A stretch of DNA of 32,570 bases from Deltaproteobacteria bacterium (GTDB lineage: Bacteria; Desulfobacterota; Deferrimicrobia; Deferrimicrobiales; Deferrimicrobiaceae), in assembly GCA_020346465.1 (NCBI GenBank), contig CP070783.1, positions 2,109,652 to 2,142,221 on the forward strand, written 5' to 3'. The translations under genes and the position numbers were made by a program. Under the pieces are notes generated by a model, which worked only from the letters and a program-made list of their open reading frames with translations, was not told where the DNA came from and did not search any database. The stretch's first letter is position 1. Each line of letters starts with the position of its first letter. Below are positions 21,546 through 32,570 of this stretch, piece by piece.

Positions 21546-23222
21546 CTACCGGGCCCCGACCAGCGGAACGATGAGCTTGGGATTGGCTCCCGGCGCGACG
21601 GTCACCGTCACCACTTTTTCCACGCCGAGAGGTTCGTTCACGAAGCGCAGCCGGTGCTCCCCCTCGGGGAGCTCCAGCAGGGAAATCGGAGTCACCCCGA
21701 GATACTGCTTCCCCTCGAATACCTTCGCCCAGGGAATCGCCTGGACCACTTCCAGGGTACCCGTCCGCCGCTCCAGCGCAATCCGGAAACGGGAAAGCTG
21801 CGCAAGCGAATCGGCCGGTACGGTTCGCGAGACGTACCCCTCCTTGCGGAACACGATGGTCCCGCCCGCCAGGGGCGCAGTGTCCAGATCCAGGGGGGTG
21901 GAGCCGAAAGAGGTCCCATCCGCGGAGCCCACCAGAACCCCTGCCGGCTCGGTCTCGATCCACACCCGTCGCTCCTTTCCGGGAAAGAGACCGCCCCGCG
22001 AAATCCCCTCCGGACTGGCCCCCTTCGGCGAGGACTTCCCGGGATCGGCGACGGATTCAGCACCCGTTCCCGGATTCGACGATCGGTTCCCGGAAGGGAT
22101 CGCCGGGGGGCCTGCGGGAGAGATCTCCCCCGTCACGACGGAAGAGTTTCCCCGCTGCGGCAGTCCGGTCCCCTTCCACAGCATCACGCCCCCCACGGAA
22201 ACCGCCACGAGCGCCGATGTCAACCCGATTCGGACTCCCCGTCTGCCCATCATCCCGTAGGCTTCCCTGTTCTCGCGCACCATGGCCGGATCGCCCCCCG
22301 AAGGGACGGGGTCAGCGACAACCGTATCTTCCTCGCCCTTTCCCGCCCCGGGGAAGAGGAGATCCCAGAAAGCGACCAGGTCGGTTCGGGATACGACCCC
22401 GGGAACGGCACTGCCGATCGCAAACGCGAGGCTGCCTGCCGTCGGATACCGGTCTTCCCTTTCCTTCGCCAGGCACTTCCTCAGAATCCCCGAGACGGCG
22501 GATGGGAAGCGGTCTGCGGGAAGATCTGCCGCATCATGATCGCTCAGGCGGGTGAGAACCTCCTCTCGCCTCTCTCCGCCGAAAAGCCTCCCCGGCAGGA
22601 AAAACTCCGCGGCGATCACCCCGGCGGAGAAAAGATCCGACGAAACGGACGCCTCCTCCCCCCTGGCCTGTTCCGGGGACATGTAGGAAAATTTCCCCTC
22701 CCATGCTTCCGGCCTGCCCTCCCCGGGGGGCAACCCCCGTGCAATGCCGAAGTCCGTGATTTTCACCGCCCCTGCCCTCGACAACAGGATGTTCGAGGGG
22801 GTGATGTCCCGATGGATGATCTTCCGGGAATGCAGGTAGGAGATCCCGTCCAGCATCCCTTCTACCCAGTACCGCCAGAGGGGGAGAGGGACCGGCATCG
22901 ATCGGACGCGCATTTGCGCGACCGCCTGCGCCAGGTTCCACCCGTCGACGAATTCCATGGCGAGATAGAAGGACGTTCCCCGTTTTCCGAAATCGAACAC
23001 CTGGACGAGGTTCTGATGGGAGAGGGTCGCCGCGATGCGCGCCTCCCGGATGAACATGTCGCGAAAGCGGGCATTCTCCGTGAAGCGCGGGTGAACCACC
23101 TTGACGGCCACGTTCTTCTCGAATCCCTCCTCCCCGCGCAGCCGGCAAAGGTATACCTCGGCCATTCCCCCGGATGCGATTTTCCGGATGACGGTGTATC
23201 GTTCGGGCAGGCCCGGAAACAA
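21546..23222 (-). CDS. Membrane Ser/Thr protein kinase with C-terminal PEGA repeats
   Basis: This 558-residue Hanks-type kinase has a G-loop at 17-26 (ASGGMAEVYL), catalytic Lys41, alpha-C Glu60, catalytic loop HRDITPSN at 137-144 and DFG at 157-159, so it looks active. A transmembrane helix lies at about 331-349. The extracytoplasmic part contains two PEGA-like beta repeats (about 419-484 and 488-556), which bind surface polymers or other proteins in related kinases. The start is TTG at 23222, backed by an AAGGAGGTAG site; no ATG is better placed. The stop codon of the response regulator lies inside that site, so translation is coupled. Location next to NtrYX suggests it feeds the same response, a guess without direct evidence. 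Confidence 0.9.
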   Translation of the reverse strand: MFPGLPERYTVIRKIASGGMAEVYLCRLRGEEGFEKNVAVKVVHPRFTENARFRDMFIREARIAATLSHQNLVQVFDFGKRGTSFYLAMEFVDGWNLAQAVAQMRVRSMPVPLPLWRYWVEGMLDGISYLHSRKIIHRDITPSNILLSRAGAVKITDFGIARGLPPGEGRPEAWEGKFSYMSPEQARGEEASVSSDLFSAGVIAAEFFLPGRLFGGERREEVLTRLSDHDAADLPADRFPSAVSGILRKCLAKEREDRYPTAGSLAFAIGSAVPGVVSRTDLVAFWDLLFPGAGKGEEDTVVADPVPSGGDPAMVRENREAYGMMGRRGVRIGLTSALVAVSVGGVMLWKGTGLPQRGNSSVVTGEISPAGPPAIPSGNRSSNPGTGAESVADPGKSSPKGASPEGISRGGLFPGKERRVWIETEPAGVLVGSADGTSFGSTPLDLDTAPLAGGTIVFRKEGYVSRTVPADSLAQLSRFRIALERRTGTLEVVQAIPWAKVFEGKQYLGVTPISLLELPEGEHRLRFVNEPLGVEKVVTVTVAPGANPKLIVPLVGAR

Positions 23223-23226
23223 CCGG

Positions 23227-24603
23227 CTACCTCCTTCCCCCCTCCGGCGCGATCGCCAGCTGCTTCATCTTCCGGTGGATGCTGGTCCGGTCCAGGCCCA
23301 GTTTCTCCGCCGTGCGGCTTATGTTGAAATCGTTCTCCCTGAGCTTCCGGGTGAGGAACTCCTTCTCGAACGCGAGGACGGCATCCCGGAAATGCTCCCG
23401 CTCGAACCCGCCCGCCGGCGGCGTCTCTTCGCGTGGCGGCTCGACCGCCAGAACCCGCGCAACGGTTTCCTCCCCGATCGAAGGCCCCGTCGACAGGATG
23501 ACGAGTCTCTCCACGACGTTTCGCAATTCGCGGACGTTCCCCGGCCAGGCGTGGGCGAGGAGCCGCTCCATCGCCTCCCGGGTGAACGTCTTCCGTTCTT
23601 TCCCGTGCTCGGCGCAGATCTCCCCGGCAAAATGGTCCGCGATCGGGGGGATATCCTCCTTCCGGTCGCGCAAAGCCGGCACGAGGATCGGGAAGACGTT
23701 CAGGCGGAAGTAGAGGTCGTCGCGGAATCTTCCCGCCTCGACCTCCCTCGGCAGGTTCCGGTTCGTCGCCGCGATGATCCTCACGTCCGCATGGATCTTC
23801 TCCCCCCCCCCGATCCTCTCGAACTGTTTCTCCTCGAGGACCCGAAGGATCTTCGCCTGTGTGCGCGGGCTCATGTCCCCCACCTCATCGAGGAACAGGG
23901 TGCCCCCCTCCGCCATTTCGAAGCGCCCTTTCCTGCGCCCGGTCGCGCCGGTGAACGCACCTTTCTCATGCCCGAAGAGTTCCGATTCGATCAATTCGTC
24001 GGGGATGGCGGCACAGTTCACCGCGACGAACGGGCGGTTCGCTCTCCTGCTGTGCCGGTGGATCTCGCGGGCGACGATCTCCTTCCCGGAGCCGTTCTCC
24101 CCGGCAACGAGGACCGAGGCGTTCGTGGGCCCGGCGGCCGCGATCTCGGCCCGGACTCTCCCCATGGATTCCGAATTCCCGACCAGGCGGTATTTCTTCT
24201 CGACCCGCTCCTTCAGCTCCACGTTCTCCAGGCGGAGCTCTCCCTGCTCGATCGCACGGGCGAGGGTAATGAGCAGCTTGGTGAGAGAGATCGGCTTCTC
24301 GATGAAGTCGAACGCGCCCATCTTGACCGCCTTCACCGCCGTGTCGATCGTCCCGTGGCCCGAGATCATGATGACCGGGATGATTGGGTACGCCTCCCGG
24401 ATCCTCTTGAGCGTCTCGAGACCGTCCATTCCCGGCATCCACACGTCGAGCAGGACGGCATCCACGAACGACCGGGACAGGATCTCGAGGCCCTGGGCGC
24501 CGTCTCCCGCCTGCATGACGTGGTAGCCGTCGTCGGACAGAACGCCCTCGAGCGTCTTCCGGATGTTCGTCTCGTCGTCGACGACCAGAACCGAGTATCC
24601 CAT
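23227..24603 (-). CDS. ntrX: NtrX-like sigma-54-dependent response regulator
   Basis: This 458-residue protein has three domains. The receiver holds Asp53 (DVWMPGMDG) and is preceded by the DD pair of the acidic pocket. The AAA+ sigma-54 activator domain has GENGSGKE at 168-175, GAFTGA at 215-220 (the sigma-54 contact loop), Walker B TLFLDE at 235-240 and an arginine-finger region. A Fis-type helix-turn-helix closes it (SRTAEKLGLDRTSIHRKMKQL). All activator motifs are intact, so it should open sigma-54 promoters when phosphorylated. The pairing with an NtrY-like kinase 7 bases upstream identifies it as the NtrX type rather than NtrC. The ATG at 24603 has an AGG 6 bases upstream. Targets are unknown; a nearby sigma-54-type site ahead of lpxC is a candidate. 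Confidence 0.93.
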   Translation of the reverse strand: MGYSVLVVDDETNIRKTLEGVLSDDGYHVMQAGDGAQGLEILSRSFVDAVLLDVWMPGMDGLETLKRIREAYPIIPVIMISGHGTIDTAVKAVKMGAFDFIEKPISLTKLLITLARAIEQGELRLENVELKERVEKKYRLVGNSESMGRVRAEIAAAGPTNASVLVAGENGSGKEIVAREIHRHSRRANRPFVAVNCAAIPDELIESELFGHEKGAFTGATGRRKGRFEMAEGGTLFLDEVGDMSPRTQAKILRVLEEKQFERIGGGEKIHADVRIIAATNRNLPREVEAGRFRDDLYFRLNVFPILVPALRDRKEDIPPIADHFAGEICAEHGKERKTFTREAMERLLAHAWPGNVRELRNVVERLVILSTGPSIGEETVARVLAVEPPREETPPAGGFEREHFRDAVLAFEKEFLTRKLRENDFNISRTAEKLGLDRTSIHRKMKQLAIAPEGGRR

Positions 24604-24610
24604 TGCGAAC

Positions 24611-26812
24611 CTACCCCCCTCCCTTTGGTCGGACGGGGAATTCGATCTCGAATACCGCGCCCCTCGGGACGTTCTCCCGAACTTTCACCGTACCCTGGTG
24701 GTCGCTTGCGACCGCGCTGACGATCGCCAGCCCGAGGCCCGTCCCCCCCTCCTTGCGGGAGAAATACGGCTCGAACAGGCGGTCCCGGTCCTCGGGAGGA
24801 ATCCCCGGCCCGTCGTCGCCCACGGAAATCCGCACGCTTCCCAGGGTCGGTTCGTGGGCCACCCGAACCACGACCCGCCCTTTCTCCGCCAGCGCCGCCG
24901 CCGCGTTCTCCAGCAGGTTGGTCATCGCCCGTCGGATCTGGAACGGGTCGAACCAGACCGGCGGAGTCTGCTCCTCCTCGAACTCCCACGCGATTCCGGG
25001 GTGAGCCGACCGGAACGTCTCCACGACCGTTCGCAGTTCCTCCGGGAGGTTCCCCTCCTTGAAGGCGGGAGCGGGCATGCGGGCGAAGCGGGTGAACTCC
25101 TCGACGAGGTTCTTGAGCGATCCCACCTCGGAGAGGATCGTCTGGGTGCTCTCGGCGAAGGCGGGATCGTCCGCGTGCGACGGCGCGAACCTCCTCTCCA
25201 GCCGCTCCGTGGAGAGCTGGATCGGCGTCAGGGGGTTTCGGATCTCGTGGGCGATCCGCCGCGCAATTTCCCTCCACGCCATGATCCGCTGCAGACGCAT
25301 CGCCTGCGAAAGGTCGTCGAAGGCCACCACCAGCCCCATGTACTCCCCGTCGTCCCCCTGGAGCGACGTCACGCTGACACGCAGGGAGATCCTCTTTCCC
25401 CCGACGGTGAGATCCACCTGCCTCTCCACCTGTCCGCCGGGGGTCTCCGCCAACTCGCGCGAAAGGGTCCGCACCGTCTCGTAGTGCTCTTCCCGGACCA
25501 CCTCCTTGTACGGCTTGCCCATGACCTTGTCCATTTTGATCGCGAGCAGCCGTTCCGCCACCCGGTTGATCATCGCGATGCGGCCCGTACGATCGATGAC
25601 GATGACTCCGGTGGAGATGTTCGTCAGGATCGTCTCGATGAACCGGCTCCTTCTTCGAAGCTCCTCGAACGTTGCCGAGAGGGATACGTTGGCGTCCTCG
25701 AGGCTCTGCTTCATCTCCTTGAGGTCCGCCGTCATCCGGTTGAAGGAGCCGACCAGGTTCCCGAATTCGTCGCTGGACTGGTAATCGAGCCGGACGTCCA
25801 GATCCCCGGAAGCCACCTTCTCGGTCCCTTCCGCCAGCATCTGGACGGGTACGGTTATCTGCCGCGCGAGGTAGATTCCCATCCAGGAGGCGGCGAATAC
25901 CACAAGGAGGGTGATGAGGATGAGCGTGGCCACGTAGCTGGCACGGATCGGGTCGTCGAGAAGCCGCACCTGGTGGTACTCGTCGTACGCTTTCGTGATC
26001 TCCCGGATCCGCGATACCTCATGGGGCGGGATCGTCTTCAACGCAACGACGGCCCTCCCGTCGGGCAGAAGACGGACGGCGGACACATACGACTCGCTGA
26101 CGAACGTCAATGCGCCTCTGCGCCGGAGGTTGCCCTCCAACCCTTTCAGGCGGGATCCGATCTGCGAGGTGATCTCCCCGGGAACGTCCCCGCCCCGCCC
26201 CAGGACACCGCCTTTTCCCACGACCAGGAGAGCAACGTCCGGGGATTTCCCCCTCCGGACGGCCTCCAGGGCGGCGTCGAGGGAGACCGCCTCCCCCTTC
26301 CGGAGGATTGCGGACGCCGCCTCCTCCGCCAGGCCGGCCAGGCTCCCGGCCTCCTTCTCGAGGTTCCCGCGGGCGATGTCGAGCGCGCTGGTCAGGGCGA
26401 GCCCGACCCTGCTGCCGATCCACGACTTGATGCTCGTCGTGGTGATGTTGGTGGCCGCGATGAAGAGGAGGATCGTGGGAATGAGGGAAAAGGAGATGAA
26501 GATGAGCACCAGGCGGGACCGGATCTTCGCCCCCAGGATGTTCCGCTTCCGGTCCATGATCAGCTTGAACACGTTCCGGGTGACGAGGAAGATCAGCAGG
26601 ACGATCAGGATGACGTTGATGTTGATGAGCGCGAAGATGATGATGTTGCTCGTGAACGTCACCGTCCCGCCGATCGCCGCCAGGTTCGCCTCCAGGATGG
26701 TGAGCCCGACCACCAGGGCGGCCACGAACCCGATGGCGATCCTCTCCCGCCTTCTCTTTGCGACCCTGTTCTCCGGGGAAAGGTCCGGCTTCCTGCGCAG
26801 ATTCTCTTTCAT
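24611..26812 (-). CDS. ntrY: NtrY-like membrane sensor histidine kinase
   Basis: This is a 733-residue kinase. Three N-terminal hydrophobic segments (about 25-47, 54-80 and 99-122) precede a periplasmic region of about 170 residues. A further membrane helix (ATLILITLLVVFAASWMGIYL) leads to a HAMP domain, a PAS domain (about 390-500), HisKA with His522 (AHEIRNPLTPIQ), and an HATPase with NLLENAAAAL, DDGPGIPPED and GGTGLGLAIV. This is the standard NtrY layout. The ATG at 26812 forms an ATGA overlap with the DUF4390 stop and best fits homologue N-termini; ATG 26839 is an alternative with a nearer GGAG. It is predicted to phosphorylate the NtrX-like protein encoded next to it. The signal it senses is unknown. 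Confidence 0.92.
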   Translation of the reverse strand: MKENLRRKPDLSPENRVAKRRRERIAIGFVAALVVGLTILEANLAAIGGTVTFTSNIIIFALININVILIVLLIFLVTRNVFKLIMDRKRNILGAKIRSRLVLIFISFSLIPTILLFIAATNITTTSIKSWIGSRVGLALTSALDIARGNLEKEAGSLAGLAEEAASAILRKGEAVSLDAALEAVRRGKSPDVALLVVGKGGVLGRGGDVPGEITSQIGSRLKGLEGNLRRRGALTFVSESYVSAVRLLPDGRAVVALKTIPPHEVSRIREITKAYDEYHQVRLLDDPIRASYVATLILITLLVVFAASWMGIYLARQITVPVQMLAEGTEKVASGDLDVRLDYQSSDEFGNLVGSFNRMTADLKEMKQSLEDANVSLSATFEELRRRSRFIETILTNISTGVIVIDRTGRIAMINRVAERLLAIKMDKVMGKPYKEVVREEHYETVRTLSRELAETPGGQVERQVDLTVGGKRISLRVSVTSLQGDDGEYMGLVVAFDDLSQAMRLQRIMAWREIARRIAHEIRNPLTPIQLSTERLERRFAPSHADDPAFAESTQTILSEVGSLKNLVEEFTRFARMPAPAFKEGNLPEELRTVVETFRSAHPGIAWEFEEEQTPPVWFDPFQIRRAMTNLLENAAAALAEKGRVVVRVAHEPTLGSVRISVGDDGPGIPPEDRDRLFEPYFSRKEGGTGLGLAIVSAVASDHQGTVKVRENVPRGAVFEIEFPVRPKGGG

Positions 26813-27363
26813 GGGGCGGAAATGTCTCCTCTTGCCCATTCGGTCTCCACATCCCAAAGGGAGGAAAAGAAGAGGATCGAGCGGAGCGGTTCCGACAGGC
26901 CCACCTTGTCAAGACGCGTCCGGACGTACGCACGGTACCTCTTCCCGCGGGTGACCTCGTAGTCCAGCGGCACGATGACCTCGTACCGGGTCATCCCTGC
27001 CAGCGCGGTGAAGATGTCCGGAAAAAGTTCCGCCCCCTTGCCCCGGTTCAGGTGGTACACGCGGGAGAGGGCATCGTACCGGACGGAGCGGGAGAAGGTG
27101 ACCTCGCCGAGCCTGGCGTTGAACCAGTTCCGGTGAACCCTCTCGACGCGCACGACGGTCTTGAAGGAGATTTCGATGCCGCTTTTTAACGCCTCCACCA
27201 TTTCGGGGGAAAACGCCTTCCGGAGGGTGAAAAAGACACGGGCCTCCTTTCCGTTGGCCCGTCCGTGGATGTCCGTGATGCGCGGCTTCGGGGAATCGCC
27301 GGCCGAGAGGACAGGCGTCGCGAGAACCGCTATAAAAATCAACGATATAGCAATGTAGCGCAA
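26809..27363 (-). CDS. DUF4390-family secreted protein
   Basis: This 184-residue protein has a signal peptide (RYIAISLIFIAVLATPVLSA, cleavage after residue 21). The mature part fits DUF4390: 'ARVFFTLRKAFSPEMVEALKSGIEISFKTVVRVERVHRNWF' and 'YEVTRGKRYRAYVRTRLDK'. Members are typically encoded just upstream of an NtrY-like kinase, as here, so it may work with the sensor in the periplasm. The function itself is not known. The start is TTG at 27363, with a GGGGGG stretch 5 bases upstream and a promoter 20 bases further up. The C-terminus lacks a membrane segment. It overlaps ntrY by 4 bases. Confidence 0.88.
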   Translation of the reverse strand: MRYIAISLIFIAVLATPVLSAGDSPKPRITDIHGRANGKEARVFFTLRKAFSPEMVEALKSGIEISFKTVVRVERVHRNWFNARLGEVTFSRSVRYDALSRVYHLNRGKGAELFPDIFTALAGMTRYEVIVPLDYEVTRGKRYRAYVRTRLDKVGLSEPLRSILFFSSLWDVETEWARGDISAP

Positions 27364-27380: not shown

Positions 27381-27408
27381 ATTATACCCGACTGAGGCAA
27401 ATCTGCAA
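27381..27408 (-). promoter_or_regulatory. Sigma-70-like promoter of the DUF4390-ntrYX-kinase operon
   Basis: On the - strand TTGCAG (27403-27408) and a perfect TATAAT (27381-27386) are 16 bases apart. The start would fall near 27374, giving an approximately 11-base leader before the TTG of DUF4390. The adjacent gap 27364-27472 otherwise holds only the lpxC terminator. Confidence 0.55.
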
Positions 27409-27428
27409 CAGATGGAAAATCGAGCGGT

Positions 27429-27463
27429 AAAAGGGGGGGGAGTGGCCCCGTCAAGGGCCACTC
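27429..27463 (-). terminator. lpxC terminator
   Basis: On the - strand GAGTGGCCC (27455-27463) pairs perfectly with GGGCCACTC (27440-27448) around a 6-base loop, 9 bases after the lpxC stop. It is followed by a C-run and then TTTT. The interrupted T-tract lowers strength, but the stem is clear. Confidence 0.55.
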
Positions 27464-27472
27464 GAAGGGGGA

Positions 27473-28366
27473 TTAGGCGCTTGCCTGTATATCCACGGGG
27501 ACCTTCCCCGTGCTGACAGGCGGGTCGTGAAATGCGGAACGCACGGGCGACGCGAGGTATTCGGCGACGGCGTGGTTCACCGTATGCCCCGGGCGGACGG
27601 CGACGAAAGAGCCGCGCACGGGACGCCCCAGCAGGGCGATGTCGCCGAGGAAGTCAAGCAGCTTGTGCCGGGCGAATTCGTTGGGGAACCGGAGACCCTC
27701 CGTATTGTGCACCTTGGCGCCTTCAACGACGATGGCGTTGTCGAGGGTCCCGCCTTTTGCGAGACCGGCCGCGCGAAGGGCGTCGATCTGCTCCCGCAGG
27801 ACGAAAGTCCGCGCAGGGGCGATTTCCTTGAGGAACCTCTCGGGGTTGAGGGTGAGCTTTGCCCATTGCCGCCCGATCGCGCTCGCCGGAAAGTCGACAG
27901 TCACAAGGATCTCCATCTCCACGCACGGGGAGACAACCACCATGGATCCGTTCCGGCGGATCCTGTCGTTCTCCCAGACCCTCAGGAACCGTCTGCGGAC
28001 GTCTTGCCGGGCAGGGCCCGCAGATGCGATCGCCTGGGAGATCTGGAGAGCGCTTCCGTCGAGGATCGGCAGTTCCGGGCCGTCCACCTCGATCACCGCG
28101 TTGTCGATCTCCATCCCGTACAGCGCGGCGAGGAAATGCTCCACCGTGGAGATTTTCGCGCCACCGGCGGACAGAACCGTCGCATAGGCCGTTTCGGCCA
28201 CGTTTTCGACGGTCGCGGAGATTTCGGTCCCCGTGTCCGTGCAGCGGAAGATCATTCCGGTATCGGGGTCCGCCGGCAGGATCCTCGCGGAGACATTTGC
28301 GCCGGTGTGCAGCCCGATGCCGGAAAAGGAAAGCGGCATCGAAATCGTGTGCTGGTAATCCCTCAT
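27473..28366 (-). CDS. lpxC: UDP-3-O-acyl-N-acetylglucosamine deacetylase
   Basis: LpxC catalyses the committed, zinc-dependent deacetylation step in lipid A synthesis. At 297 residues it matches family length. The zinc ligands are His77 (STVEHFLAAL), His234 and Asp238 (FARHKLLDFLGD), with the catalytic His265 in 'RPGHTVNHA' and Glu76 next to His77. The ATG at 28366 has GGGAGAAGG upstream. The frame stays open to 28429, but the extra stretch runs through the promoter region and does not match the family. It is the last gene before the terminator at 27429. A sigma-54-like promoter is visible just upstream. The gene is separated from DUF2905/ruvB by 163 bases, so it has its own regulation. Confidence 0.97.
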   Translation of the reverse strand: MRDYQHTISMPLSFSGIGLHTGANVSARILPADPDTGMIFRCTDTGTEISATVENVAETAYATVLSAGGAKISTVEHFLAALYGMEIDNAVIEVDGPELPILDGSALQISQAIASAGPARQDVRRRFLRVWENDRIRRNGSMVVVSPCVEMEILVTVDFPASAIGRQWAKLTLNPERFLKEIAPARTFVLREQIDALRAAGLAKGGTLDNAIVVEGAKVHNTEGLRFPNEFARHKLLDFLGDIALLGRPVRGSFVAVRPGHTVNHAVAEYLASPVRSAFHDPPVSTGKVPVDIQASA

Positions 28367-28400
28367 GTCCTTCTCCCGTTGGAATGTCGGGATAAGAGTT

Positions 28401-28416
28401 TGCAATCGACATGCCA
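28401..28416 (-). promoter_or_regulatory. Candidate sigma-54 (-24/-12) promoter of lpxC
   Basis: The - strand reads TGGCATG-TCGA-TTGCA, against the consensus TGGCACG-N4-TTGCA: 11 of 12 defined positions, with GG and GC exactly 10 bases apart. The transcript would start near 28390, leaving about 23 bases to the lpxC ATG, a natural leader that contains the ribosome site. No competing good sigma-70 promoter was seen in the 28370-28530 gap, although weak TTGGCA-N17-TATCCC exists. The match is read by eye. Confidence 0.55.
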
Positions 28417-28424
28417 AACAGGAC

Positions 28425-28475
28425 AACAAATAAGCTATTGTTTTTCAGTGAGTTATTTTGGCACTTGCCTGGCAA
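28425..28475. promoter_or_regulatory. Two dyads upstream of the lpxC promoter (possible activator sites)
   Basis: AACAAATA-agc-TATTGTT (28425-28442, one extra A in the left arm) lies about 8 bases upstream of the -24 element. TTGCC-t-GGCAA (28465-28475) lies about 50 bases upstream. Such dyads could bind a sigma-54 activator, but they might be chance or part of a hairpin. The region is unusually AT-rich for this genome. Confidence 0.3.
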
Positions 28476-28529
28476 CCCCAACAGGTGTCGCATCCATGCA
28501 ACTCCGTCTGTTGCCGGGAGACCACAGGT

Positions 28530-31014: not shown

Positions 31015-32570
31015 TCAGGCGGGACGGACTCCCCCCACGATGGCCTCGGTTTCCGGCGAGGGGGAGATCCCGAGTCCCGAGGAAAGCGCCTTGCGGCAGC
31101 GGCCGTAGACCGCCATTGCCTCGGCGGCCTGTCCGGCCCGGAGATGGCAGGCCATCAGTCGCTGGTAGAACACCTCTGCGAGCTCATCCACTTCCAGCCC
31201 TTTCCGGTAGCAAGCGATGGCCTCCGCCCACTGCCCTTCCTTTTCCAGGCATCCTCCGAGAAACTCCACGGCCCGAAGGAACTTGCTCCTCAGCCGTTCC
31301 CGCGTCCCCACCACCCAGGGGCGGGAAACTTCCCCGGGCAGGAAAGGCCCCCGGTACAAGGCGACGGCTTTCGACGCGACACTCATGGCGCGCGCTTTCT
31401 CCGGGCATCCCTCTCCGCCTGAAGATGCGACGTCGATCCGCGCGGTGAGGGATTCGAAGGCGAAGGCGTCCACCCAGCAATGGCGGGGATCCAGGGTCAC
31501 CCGGCCCTCCCGCAGCGACACGGCCTTTTCCTCTCCCAGCATGGATCGCAGGCGGCGCAGCGTCGTGGCGAAGGACTGGTGCGCGAGGTCCCCTTCCGCC
31601 TCGGGCCAGAGGATGTCGGTCAGCCGCTCTTCGGGGACGTCCTTCCCTCCCAGCGCCACGAGCGCCTTGAGCATGAGGAGCGGTTTGTGCCGGGCCTTCC
31701 GGGAAAACGTCAGGGGCGTCTCTTCCTGCATCAGGTCGAACGTTCCGAGCGTGCGCAGTTTCAGCGGCCACGGCCAGTTCTCCGGATCCGGAAGAGCGCC
31801 ATCGGGGAGGAGAGCGTTTCTTCGGATGAGATCGCGTACGTACCCCCTCTCGATCCCCTTTTCCAGGGCTTTCGCGGCGACCGTCTCCAGCAGGCCGGGA
31901 CGCCAGAGGTAGACGTCGACGTACCCCTTCTCCCTTCCGATGCGCAACCCTGCCCGAAGGGAAGAAAGGCCGGACTCCTCCTTTCCCTTGAGAAGGGAAA
32001 AGTACGCATCGGCCAGCAGACAGACGAACCGGATGAAATGCATTCCTCTCTCTTTGCCCAACCGGTGGGCCCGCCTGAGATGGCGGGCCGCTGCATCCGC
32101 GTTTCCCCCTGCCTGAAGGACGAACGCTTTCAGCAGCAGAGCAAGCGCCTCGGTCCAGGGGTTCCCCACCTCCCTGCACGTGGCAAGACAGCGGTCCGCA
32201 TGGAACAGGGCCTTTGCCTGGTCTGCCCGATGCAGGGCTTCCCATGAGGAAAGGTAATGGTAAAAGGCCGCCTCCCACGGCTTCGCTGCCGAAATCGCGG
32301 CGGCCATCTTGTGCAGGAATCCCTTCGCTGTCGCCATATCCCCCTTGTGCAGGGAGGACAGCGCCCCGTGACCTTGGAGCAGAAAATCCATGAGGGGGAC
32401 GCCCGTGGCGCCAGCCAGTTCGAGACCCTCCGCCACTGCCTTCCGGCAGCGGTCATGCATGCCGTTCGCGTTGGAGTATGCCGCATCGAGCCAGCAGAGC
32501 GTGAGACGGGGAAGGGGGGAAACCTCCGGTCTCCGGCCCAGCCCGCGCAAGGAATCGAGGAGGAGCCCCG
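31015..32570 (-). CDS. Large MalT/AfsR-like regulator with TPR, winged-helix and BTAD domains (5' part outside the window)
   Basis: The frame is open to the right edge, so the N-terminus is missing; about 518 codons are visible. The first half is a helical TPR-like region (repeats such as 'GDMATAKGFLHKMAAAI' and 'GNADAAARHLRRAHRLGKERG'). An OmpR-type winged helix begins near 'LKLRTLGTFDL' (KPLLMLKALVALGGKDVPEERLTDILWPEAEGDLAHQSFATTLRRLRSML). The bacterial transcriptional activator (BTAD) domain closes the protein ('DAFAFESLTARI', 'ALYRGPFLPGEVSRPWV', 'YQRLMACHLRAGQAAEAMAVYGRCRKAL'). Such proteins usually carry an N-terminal NTPase domain that senses a ligand, here probably beyond the edge. 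It likely binds DNA and activates genes; the targets are unknown. Confidence 0.88.
   Translation of the reverse strand, partial: GLLLDSLRGLGRRPEVSPLPRLTLCWLDAAYSNANGMHDRCRKAVAEGLELAGATGVPLMDFLLQGHGALSSLHKGDMATAKGFLHKMAAAISAAKPWEAAFYHYLSSWEALHRADQAKALFHADRCLATCREVGNPWTEALALLLKAFVLQAGGNADAAARHLRRAHRLGKERGMHFIRFVCLLADAYFSLLKGKEESGLSSLRAGLRIGREKGYVDVYLWRPGLLETVAAKALEKGIERGYVRDLIRRNALLPDGALPDPENWPWPLKLRTLGTFDLMQEETPLTFSRKARHKPLLMLKALVALGGKDVPEERLTDILWPEAEGDLAHQSFATTLRRLRSMLGEEKAVSLREGRVTLDPRHCWVDAFAFESLTARIDVASSGGEGCPEKARAMSVASKAVALYRGPFLPGEVSRPWVVGTRERLRSKFLRAVEFLGGCLEKEGQWAEAIACYRKGLEVDELAEVFYQRLMACHLRAGQAAEAMAVYGRCRKALSSGLGISPSPETEAIVGGVRPA

Follow-up and report, generated by a model that had tools for sequence, protein, structure and literature searches.

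The lpxC locus and its neighbors

Lipopolysaccharide (LPS) synthesis is set at LpxC, which is also an antibiotic target. The 32,570 nt of deltaproteobacterial DNA analyzed here (the window) carry lpxC, and just downstream of it, on the same strand, the genes for a DUF4390 protein, an NtrY-like histidine kinase and an NtrX-like protein (Table 1). A preliminary description of the window had reported an NtrX-type activator with an intact GAFTGA loop at this position, and this is borne out by the profile matches: the protein has the receiver domain (REC), the AAA+ domain with GAFTGA and Walker motifs, and the Fis-type helix-turn-helix of the NtrC family, and the NtrX equivalog NF051870 is its best-matching family. 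It is termed NtrX-like because its score of 491 bits does not reach the curated NCBIfam equivalog cut-off of 600. The DUF4390 gene directly upstream of ntrY-ntrX gives the gene order of a DUF4390-NtrYX three-component system. The hairpin between lpxC and this operon has a weak T tract and is a possible terminator, and was not flagged by the terminator scan. A Ser/Thr protein kinase gene (window positions 21546-23222, - strand) directly follows ntrX, and such a gene also directly follows ntrY in genomes without ntrX. A SARP/BTAD-like transcription regulator with TPR-like repeats was recognized by eye at 31015-32550 (- strand).

Table 1. Positions of genes and predicted regulatory features around lpxC in the window.
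Feature	Position	Strand	Basis or remarks
NtrX-like enhancer-binding protein, REC-AAA(GAFTGA)-Fis HTH	23227..24603	-	Domain and motif matches
NtrY-like membrane histidine kinase (HAMP-PAS-HisKA-HATPase)	24611..26839	-	Profile matches; frame open from 26857
DUF4390 protein, PlrP-like, predicted exported	26809..27363	-	Pfam PF14334, 4.1e-29
-10 box (TATAAT) of the DUF4390-ntrYX promoter	27381..27386	-	-35 TTGCAG matches only 3/6
Third palindrome TGTTGCAGATTTGCCTCA	27393..27410	-	Overlaps the -35 of the DUF4390-ntrYX operon
Stable hairpin in the gap between lpxC and DUF4390	27440..27463	-	-19.8 kcal/mol, z -4
lpxC, sole copy in genome	27473..28366	-	Pfam LpxC 2.4e-94; TIGR00325; single match
Sigma-54 -24/-12 element TGGCATGtcgaTTGCA (= TGGCATGTCGATTGCA)	28401..28416	-	Pattern search and conservation in relatives
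IHF-like site between upstream activator sites (UAS) and promoter	28431..28455	-	Mismatch comparison with shuffles
Proximal UAS palindrome AGTTGCATGGATGCGACA	28486..28503	-	Predicted NtrX-like site, 69 bp upstream of -24 element
Distal UAS palindrome TGTGGTCTCCCGGCAACA	28509..28526	-	23 bp further up, 4 bp after DUF2905 stop

A sigma-54-type element upstream of lpxC

The TGGCATG-N4-TTGCA element that the preliminary description placed before lpxC was reproduced in both position and spacing, with GG at 28415-14, GC at 28403-02 and 10 bp between them, and it is close to the sigma-54 consensus TGGCACG-N4-TTGCW. Its last base lies 34 bp before the lpxC ATG at 28366. The transcription start predicted from it, at about 28390, gives a leader of about 24 nt, in agreement with the earlier proposal that the start fits the lpxC leader, and GGGAGAAGG precedes the ATG. 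RpoN is encoded in the genome, along with about 18 full enhancer-binding domains, and conserved palindromes at a fixed spacing form predicted activator sites at enhancer distance (see later).

A match to the consensus proves little by itself, because such matches are no more frequent than in controls: TGGCAYG-N4-TTGCW occurs twice in the 2.32-Mb genome and twice in the reversed control, and the element pattern with up to three mismatches has 12 matches in the window against 13.0 expected from shuffled sequence. The exact TGGCATG-N4-TTGCA pattern is found once in the window, and the chance of one TGGCAYG-N4-TTGCW match landing in the 163-bp gap before lpxC, reckoned from the reversed-control rate, is p ~1e-4. 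The only other perfect sigma-54 site of the genome (L276:1936-1951, - strand) is followed, 54 bp on, by a fliA-like sigma-28 gene, which itself comes directly after an enhancer-binding-protein gene. A fliA-like gene beside a gene of that kind is a classical setting for a sigma-54 target.

Conservation of the element

Two analyses proposed along with the preliminary description, a comparison of related lpxC upstream regions and a sigma-54 weight-matrix scan, both came out in its favor. Among genomes with an unfused lpxC (fused forms are described later), four more of the genus and six of the family keep the element as [TC]GG[CT]A[TC]G-N4-TTGC[AT], and its distance to the lpxC start is 46-59 nt in every family member whose gene is unfused. 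The dyads further upstream are conserved in family members as well, and in the alignment of relatives the -24/-12 element ranks with the most conserved positions between DUF2905 and lpxC. A second family of the class is represented by two genomes, one with TGGTATGttagTTGCA and the other with only a weak variant. At the level of the phylum, which gene content and named relatives suggest is Desulfobacterota, 101 lpxC loci (92 of them unfused) were scanned at a threshold of 12 bits, using a matrix that is our own approximation from the published consensus. Sites of at least 12 bits were found upstream of 66 of the 92 unfused genes, compared with 1 of 101 regions on the reverse strand, although related genomes are non-independent samples and many are fragmented metagenome assemblies. 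A chance resemblance would fit the equal counts of exact matches in the genome and the reversed control, but it is refuted by the conservation of position across the phylum against the near-empty reverse strand, and at the sequence level the element is confirmed as a genuine sigma-54-type site. Outside the phylum, sigma-54 sites before lpxC were seen in records of Pyxidicoccus, Rokuibacteriota (with ntrYX downstream), Acidobacteriota and Nitrospirota, and none in the Pseudomonas or Campylobacterales records examined.

The simple sigma-70 scan found no sigma-70-like promoter upstream of lpxC, and the terminator scan flagged nothing between DUF2905 and lpxC. The sigma-54 site might be a minor, conditional boost, with basal lpxC transcripts coming from read-through out of ruvA-ruvB-DUF2905 or from an unrecognized sigma-70 promoter, and with NtrYX only fine-tuning. 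The lack of a flagged terminator is consistent with this, as are the normally essential nature of lpxC and the fine-tuning proposed by the authors who studied the Desulfovibrio vulgaris system (see later), while the negative sigma-70 scan and the high conservation of the element weigh against it. We regard this reading as a tentative one, with somewhat less in its favor than against it, and it is compatible with the preferred reading, activation of a sigma-54 promoter by NtrX.

Linkage of the type lpxC-(DUF4390)-ntrY-ntrX is found at 44 of the 101 loci of the phylum. Sites of at least 12 bits are present in 34 of the 44 lpxC loci with ntrYX downstream and in 28 of the 42 without it; at these 28, another or a distant activator must therefore serve.

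Palindromes at lpxC and at the DUF4390-ntrYX operon

Nearly all family members have a palindrome of the type TGTTGCA-N4-TGCAACA (gap 4) whose distance upstream of the -24 element is 69-71 bp. The distal copy, read by eye, is present in most of them another 23 bp upstream, and in one (L075) it is stronger than the proximal copy. When 11 genomes were searched with up to two mismatches, only 2-5 sites per genome were found, two of which are nearly always those before lpxC and before DUF4390-ntrYX. The genome studied here has three near-matches: these two and one that was rejected as a regulon member, as it lies inside the tgt gene. Since the palindrome otherwise recurs only inside tgt, the predicted NtrX regulon consists of lpxC and the operon itself. 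In the phylum, 18 of the 44 lpxC-ntrYX loci have TGTNNC-N6-GNNACA before lpxC; matches to the TGTNNC/GNNACA half-sites have a spacer of 6 and hardly any other, and the reversed control gave 0 at spacer 6. Between the palindromes and the promoter there is an IHF-like site, whose best mismatches average 1.42 in 12 class members against 2.47 in shuffles, and whose register is -39 in 8 of the 12; this is suggestive only.

At the DUF4390-ntrYX operon, the weak -35 (TTGCAG) is embedded in the third palindrome, and the promoter was not flagged by the simple sigma-70 scan. The arrangement of palindrome and TATAAT does not vary among the family genomes in which NtrX is retained, and a palindrome so placed over the -35 suggests that NtrX autoregulates its operon, as has been reported in other organisms.

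Joint loss of the NtrX loop and the lpxC site

Among 40 loci compared, the lpxC sigma-54 site accompanies 31 of the 34 intact GAFTGA-type loops (one of them, L086, counted after placement by hand, its gene start being masked) and none of the six altered loops (GAFPGA twice, DAFPAA, GAVSWS, GALAAA and NSLPGT). Three loci have an intact loop and no site, which counts against the preferred reading. A Fisher test that ignores kinship gives p 2e-5, a value to be demoted because the six altered loops form one clade, so that the co-loss counts as a single evolutionary event. The sister of this clade has lost the site and keeps the loop; site loss before loop decay is the order expected if lpxC were the main sigma-54 target of NtrX.

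Receiver-LpxC fusions

A divergent LpxC with an N-terminal receiver domain, REC-LpxC, is encoded in several genera of the window's family. In all, 25 REC-LpxC sequences from several phyla were recognized, among them L138:518-1813, L181:6406-7665, L187:2506-3822 and L199:6989-8257. A FabZ fusion was considered for these long, divergent ORFs and rejected, the extra N-terminus being a receiver domain. At six loci analyzed closely in family genomes with REC-LpxC (L175-L180), and at a truncated seventh (L194), the DUF4390-NtrY genes are kept with no ntrX after them and no lpxC before them, one of these loci retains a C-terminal remnant of NtrX, and the palindrome has decayed. Elsewhere, at L181, L186, L191, L196, L197 and L199, NtrY is encoded directly upstream of REC-LpxC. 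Nine further loci (L182-L185 and L203-L207), including those of Desulfomonile and Nitrospinota, have a single ORF of about 710-960 aa in which a full NtrX-like protein is joined to LpxC, and the GAFTGA motif was not found in any of the nine.

The phospho-receiver residues are kept in all 25 REC-LpxC sequences, and the LpxC metal and catalytic motifs were present in all but one pattern check. In the tree, the fused LpxCs make up a single clade (support 100) that spans Desulfobacterota, Nitrospirota, Nitrospinota and Acidobacteriota, and their receivers group with NtrX receivers (97), apart from 13 other regulators of the genome that were tested. A predicted REC-LpxC structure (pLDDT 79, pTM 0.65) consists of two domains joined by a disordered linker, and is uninformative on switching. 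The fusions point to NtrX-type signaling acting on LpxC, and LpxC itself is probably a response-regulator output in these lineages. No report of receiver-LpxC fusions was found in the literature searched. Two genomes, G007 (L084/L192) and G018 (L082/L193), carry both an unfused, sigma-54-type lpxC and a REC-LpxC, which represents either a transitional state or assembly contamination.

The type of receiver found in these fusions also bears on whether the lpxC promoter, while real, is driven by some other enhancer-binding protein, with NtrYX a mere neighbor. The genome has enough enhancer-binding domains to supply one, the site persists at many lpxC loci that lack adjacent ntrYX, and in D. vulgaris the activator gene is not adjacent to lpxC. 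However, the lpxC palindrome recurs at the ntrYX operon and in no other intergenic place of the genome, it decays where NtrX is lost, and the fused receivers are NtrX-type. Another activator at this locus is thus unlikely.

A proposed NtrY-NtrX-LpxC circuit

The preferred reading, to which we give a probability of roughly 0.8, is that lpxC is transcribed from a working sigma-54 promoter formed by the element, with the NtrX-like protein of the adjoining downstream operon as its activator. NtrY and the periplasmic, PlrP-like DUF4390 protein would sense the envelope state and phosphorylate NtrX; NtrX~P, perhaps aided by an IHF bend, would bind the tandem palindromes some 100 bp upstream and drive RNAP-sigma-54, giving more LpxC and more lipid A. 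By also binding the palindrome that covers the -35 of the ntrYX operon, NtrX would limit its own expression, and LpxC would be its main or only sigma-54 target. Sister lineages may have swapped the transcriptional step for an NtrX-type receiver fused to LpxC, a change that we propose was open to them because the link between kinase and LpxC is so close. A local circuit of NtrY, NtrX and lpxC had been suggested in the preliminary description, and it gains support from the agreement of the conserved element, the palindromes at both promoters, the gene linkage, the co-loss of loop and site, and the NtrX-type fusions. From these sequence features we infer NtrX binding, activation, phosphotransfer, the signal, autorepression and phospho-control of REC-LpxC.

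Comparison with known systems

The preliminary description held that lpxC was not known as a sigma-54 gene, but this has a published counterexample. In D. vulgaris, lpxC (DVU2917) is the single mapped target of DVU2934, an NtrC-family regulator with GAFTGA, and is listed as sigma-54-dependent; in Syntrophobacter fumaroxidans, lpxC lies directly upstream of the operon of the orthologous regulator (Rajeev 2011, PMC3333781; Kazakov 2015, PMC4641369). Given this precedent, a sigma-54-controlled lpxC is not a new kind of arrangement. The likeness, drawn from the published descriptions and the S. fumaroxidans gene order, lies in the pairing of such a regulator with lpxC. The two differ in that the DVU2934 operon combines a kinase gene with one for an HD-GYP regulator and, by locus numbers, does not adjoin lpxC, whereas DUF4390-NtrY-NtrX does so here; beyond D. 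vulgaris, the DVU2934 motif preceded lpxC in only two Desulfovibrio, in contrast to the phylum-wide spread seen here; and here the palindrome series also occurs at the operon's own promoter. Compared by predicted sites, the motif census for NtrX yields lpxC and its own operon where DVU2934 has a single target. What the present analysis adds to the precedent is the wide spread of the arrangement, its very small regulon, a site for autoregulation and, most of all, the fusions.

DUF4390 corresponds to PlrP, which in Bordetella has been proposed as a third component of NtrYX systems, and the same gene immediately precedes the NtrYX pair in the PlrP-PlrSR and DUF4390-NtrYX systems of Beta- and Gammaproteobacteria (PMC13001219). 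Those PlrP-PlrSR systems are linked to rsmB and trkAH rather than lpxC, which is unmentioned in that report (PMC13001219). The machinery of the window is of the ordinary NtrYX type; the unexpected features are the circuit's dedication and the fusions. In Rhodobacter sphaeroides, NtrYX likewise governs envelope genes, but its effect on lpxC is indirect and negative: loss of NtrYX raises lpxC mRNA 8.8-fold, with no NtrX site at lpxC (PMC7240162). This increase counts against an activator circuit and, along with Sinorhizobium meliloti NtrX, which represses from sites over promoters, would favor a repressor or structural role for NtrX at lpxC. Such a role is very improbable here, as the palindromes are at enhancer distance and not over the lpxC promoter, no altered-loop NtrX accompanies an lpxC sigma-54 site, and the R. 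sphaeroides effect occurs without a site at the gene.

The signal and purpose of NtrYX are poorly known, and LpxC appears to be its dedicated output across a broad section of the diderm tree. In a large group of anaerobes, LpxC would be the main output of NtrY/NtrX, a membrane stress-sensing pair, by way of a conserved sigma-54 switch here and of a receiver fusion in sister lineages. NtrY would gain a measurable readout, and LpxC a new mode of regulation. To our knowledge, the one mode of LpxC control understood in depth is proteolysis, in enterics. The E. coli FtsH-LapB-LapC (YejM) system likewise has LpxC, the committed step, as the control point of LPS synthesis, and acts by proteolysis, whereas here control would be through sigma-54 transcription or a fused phospho-receiver.
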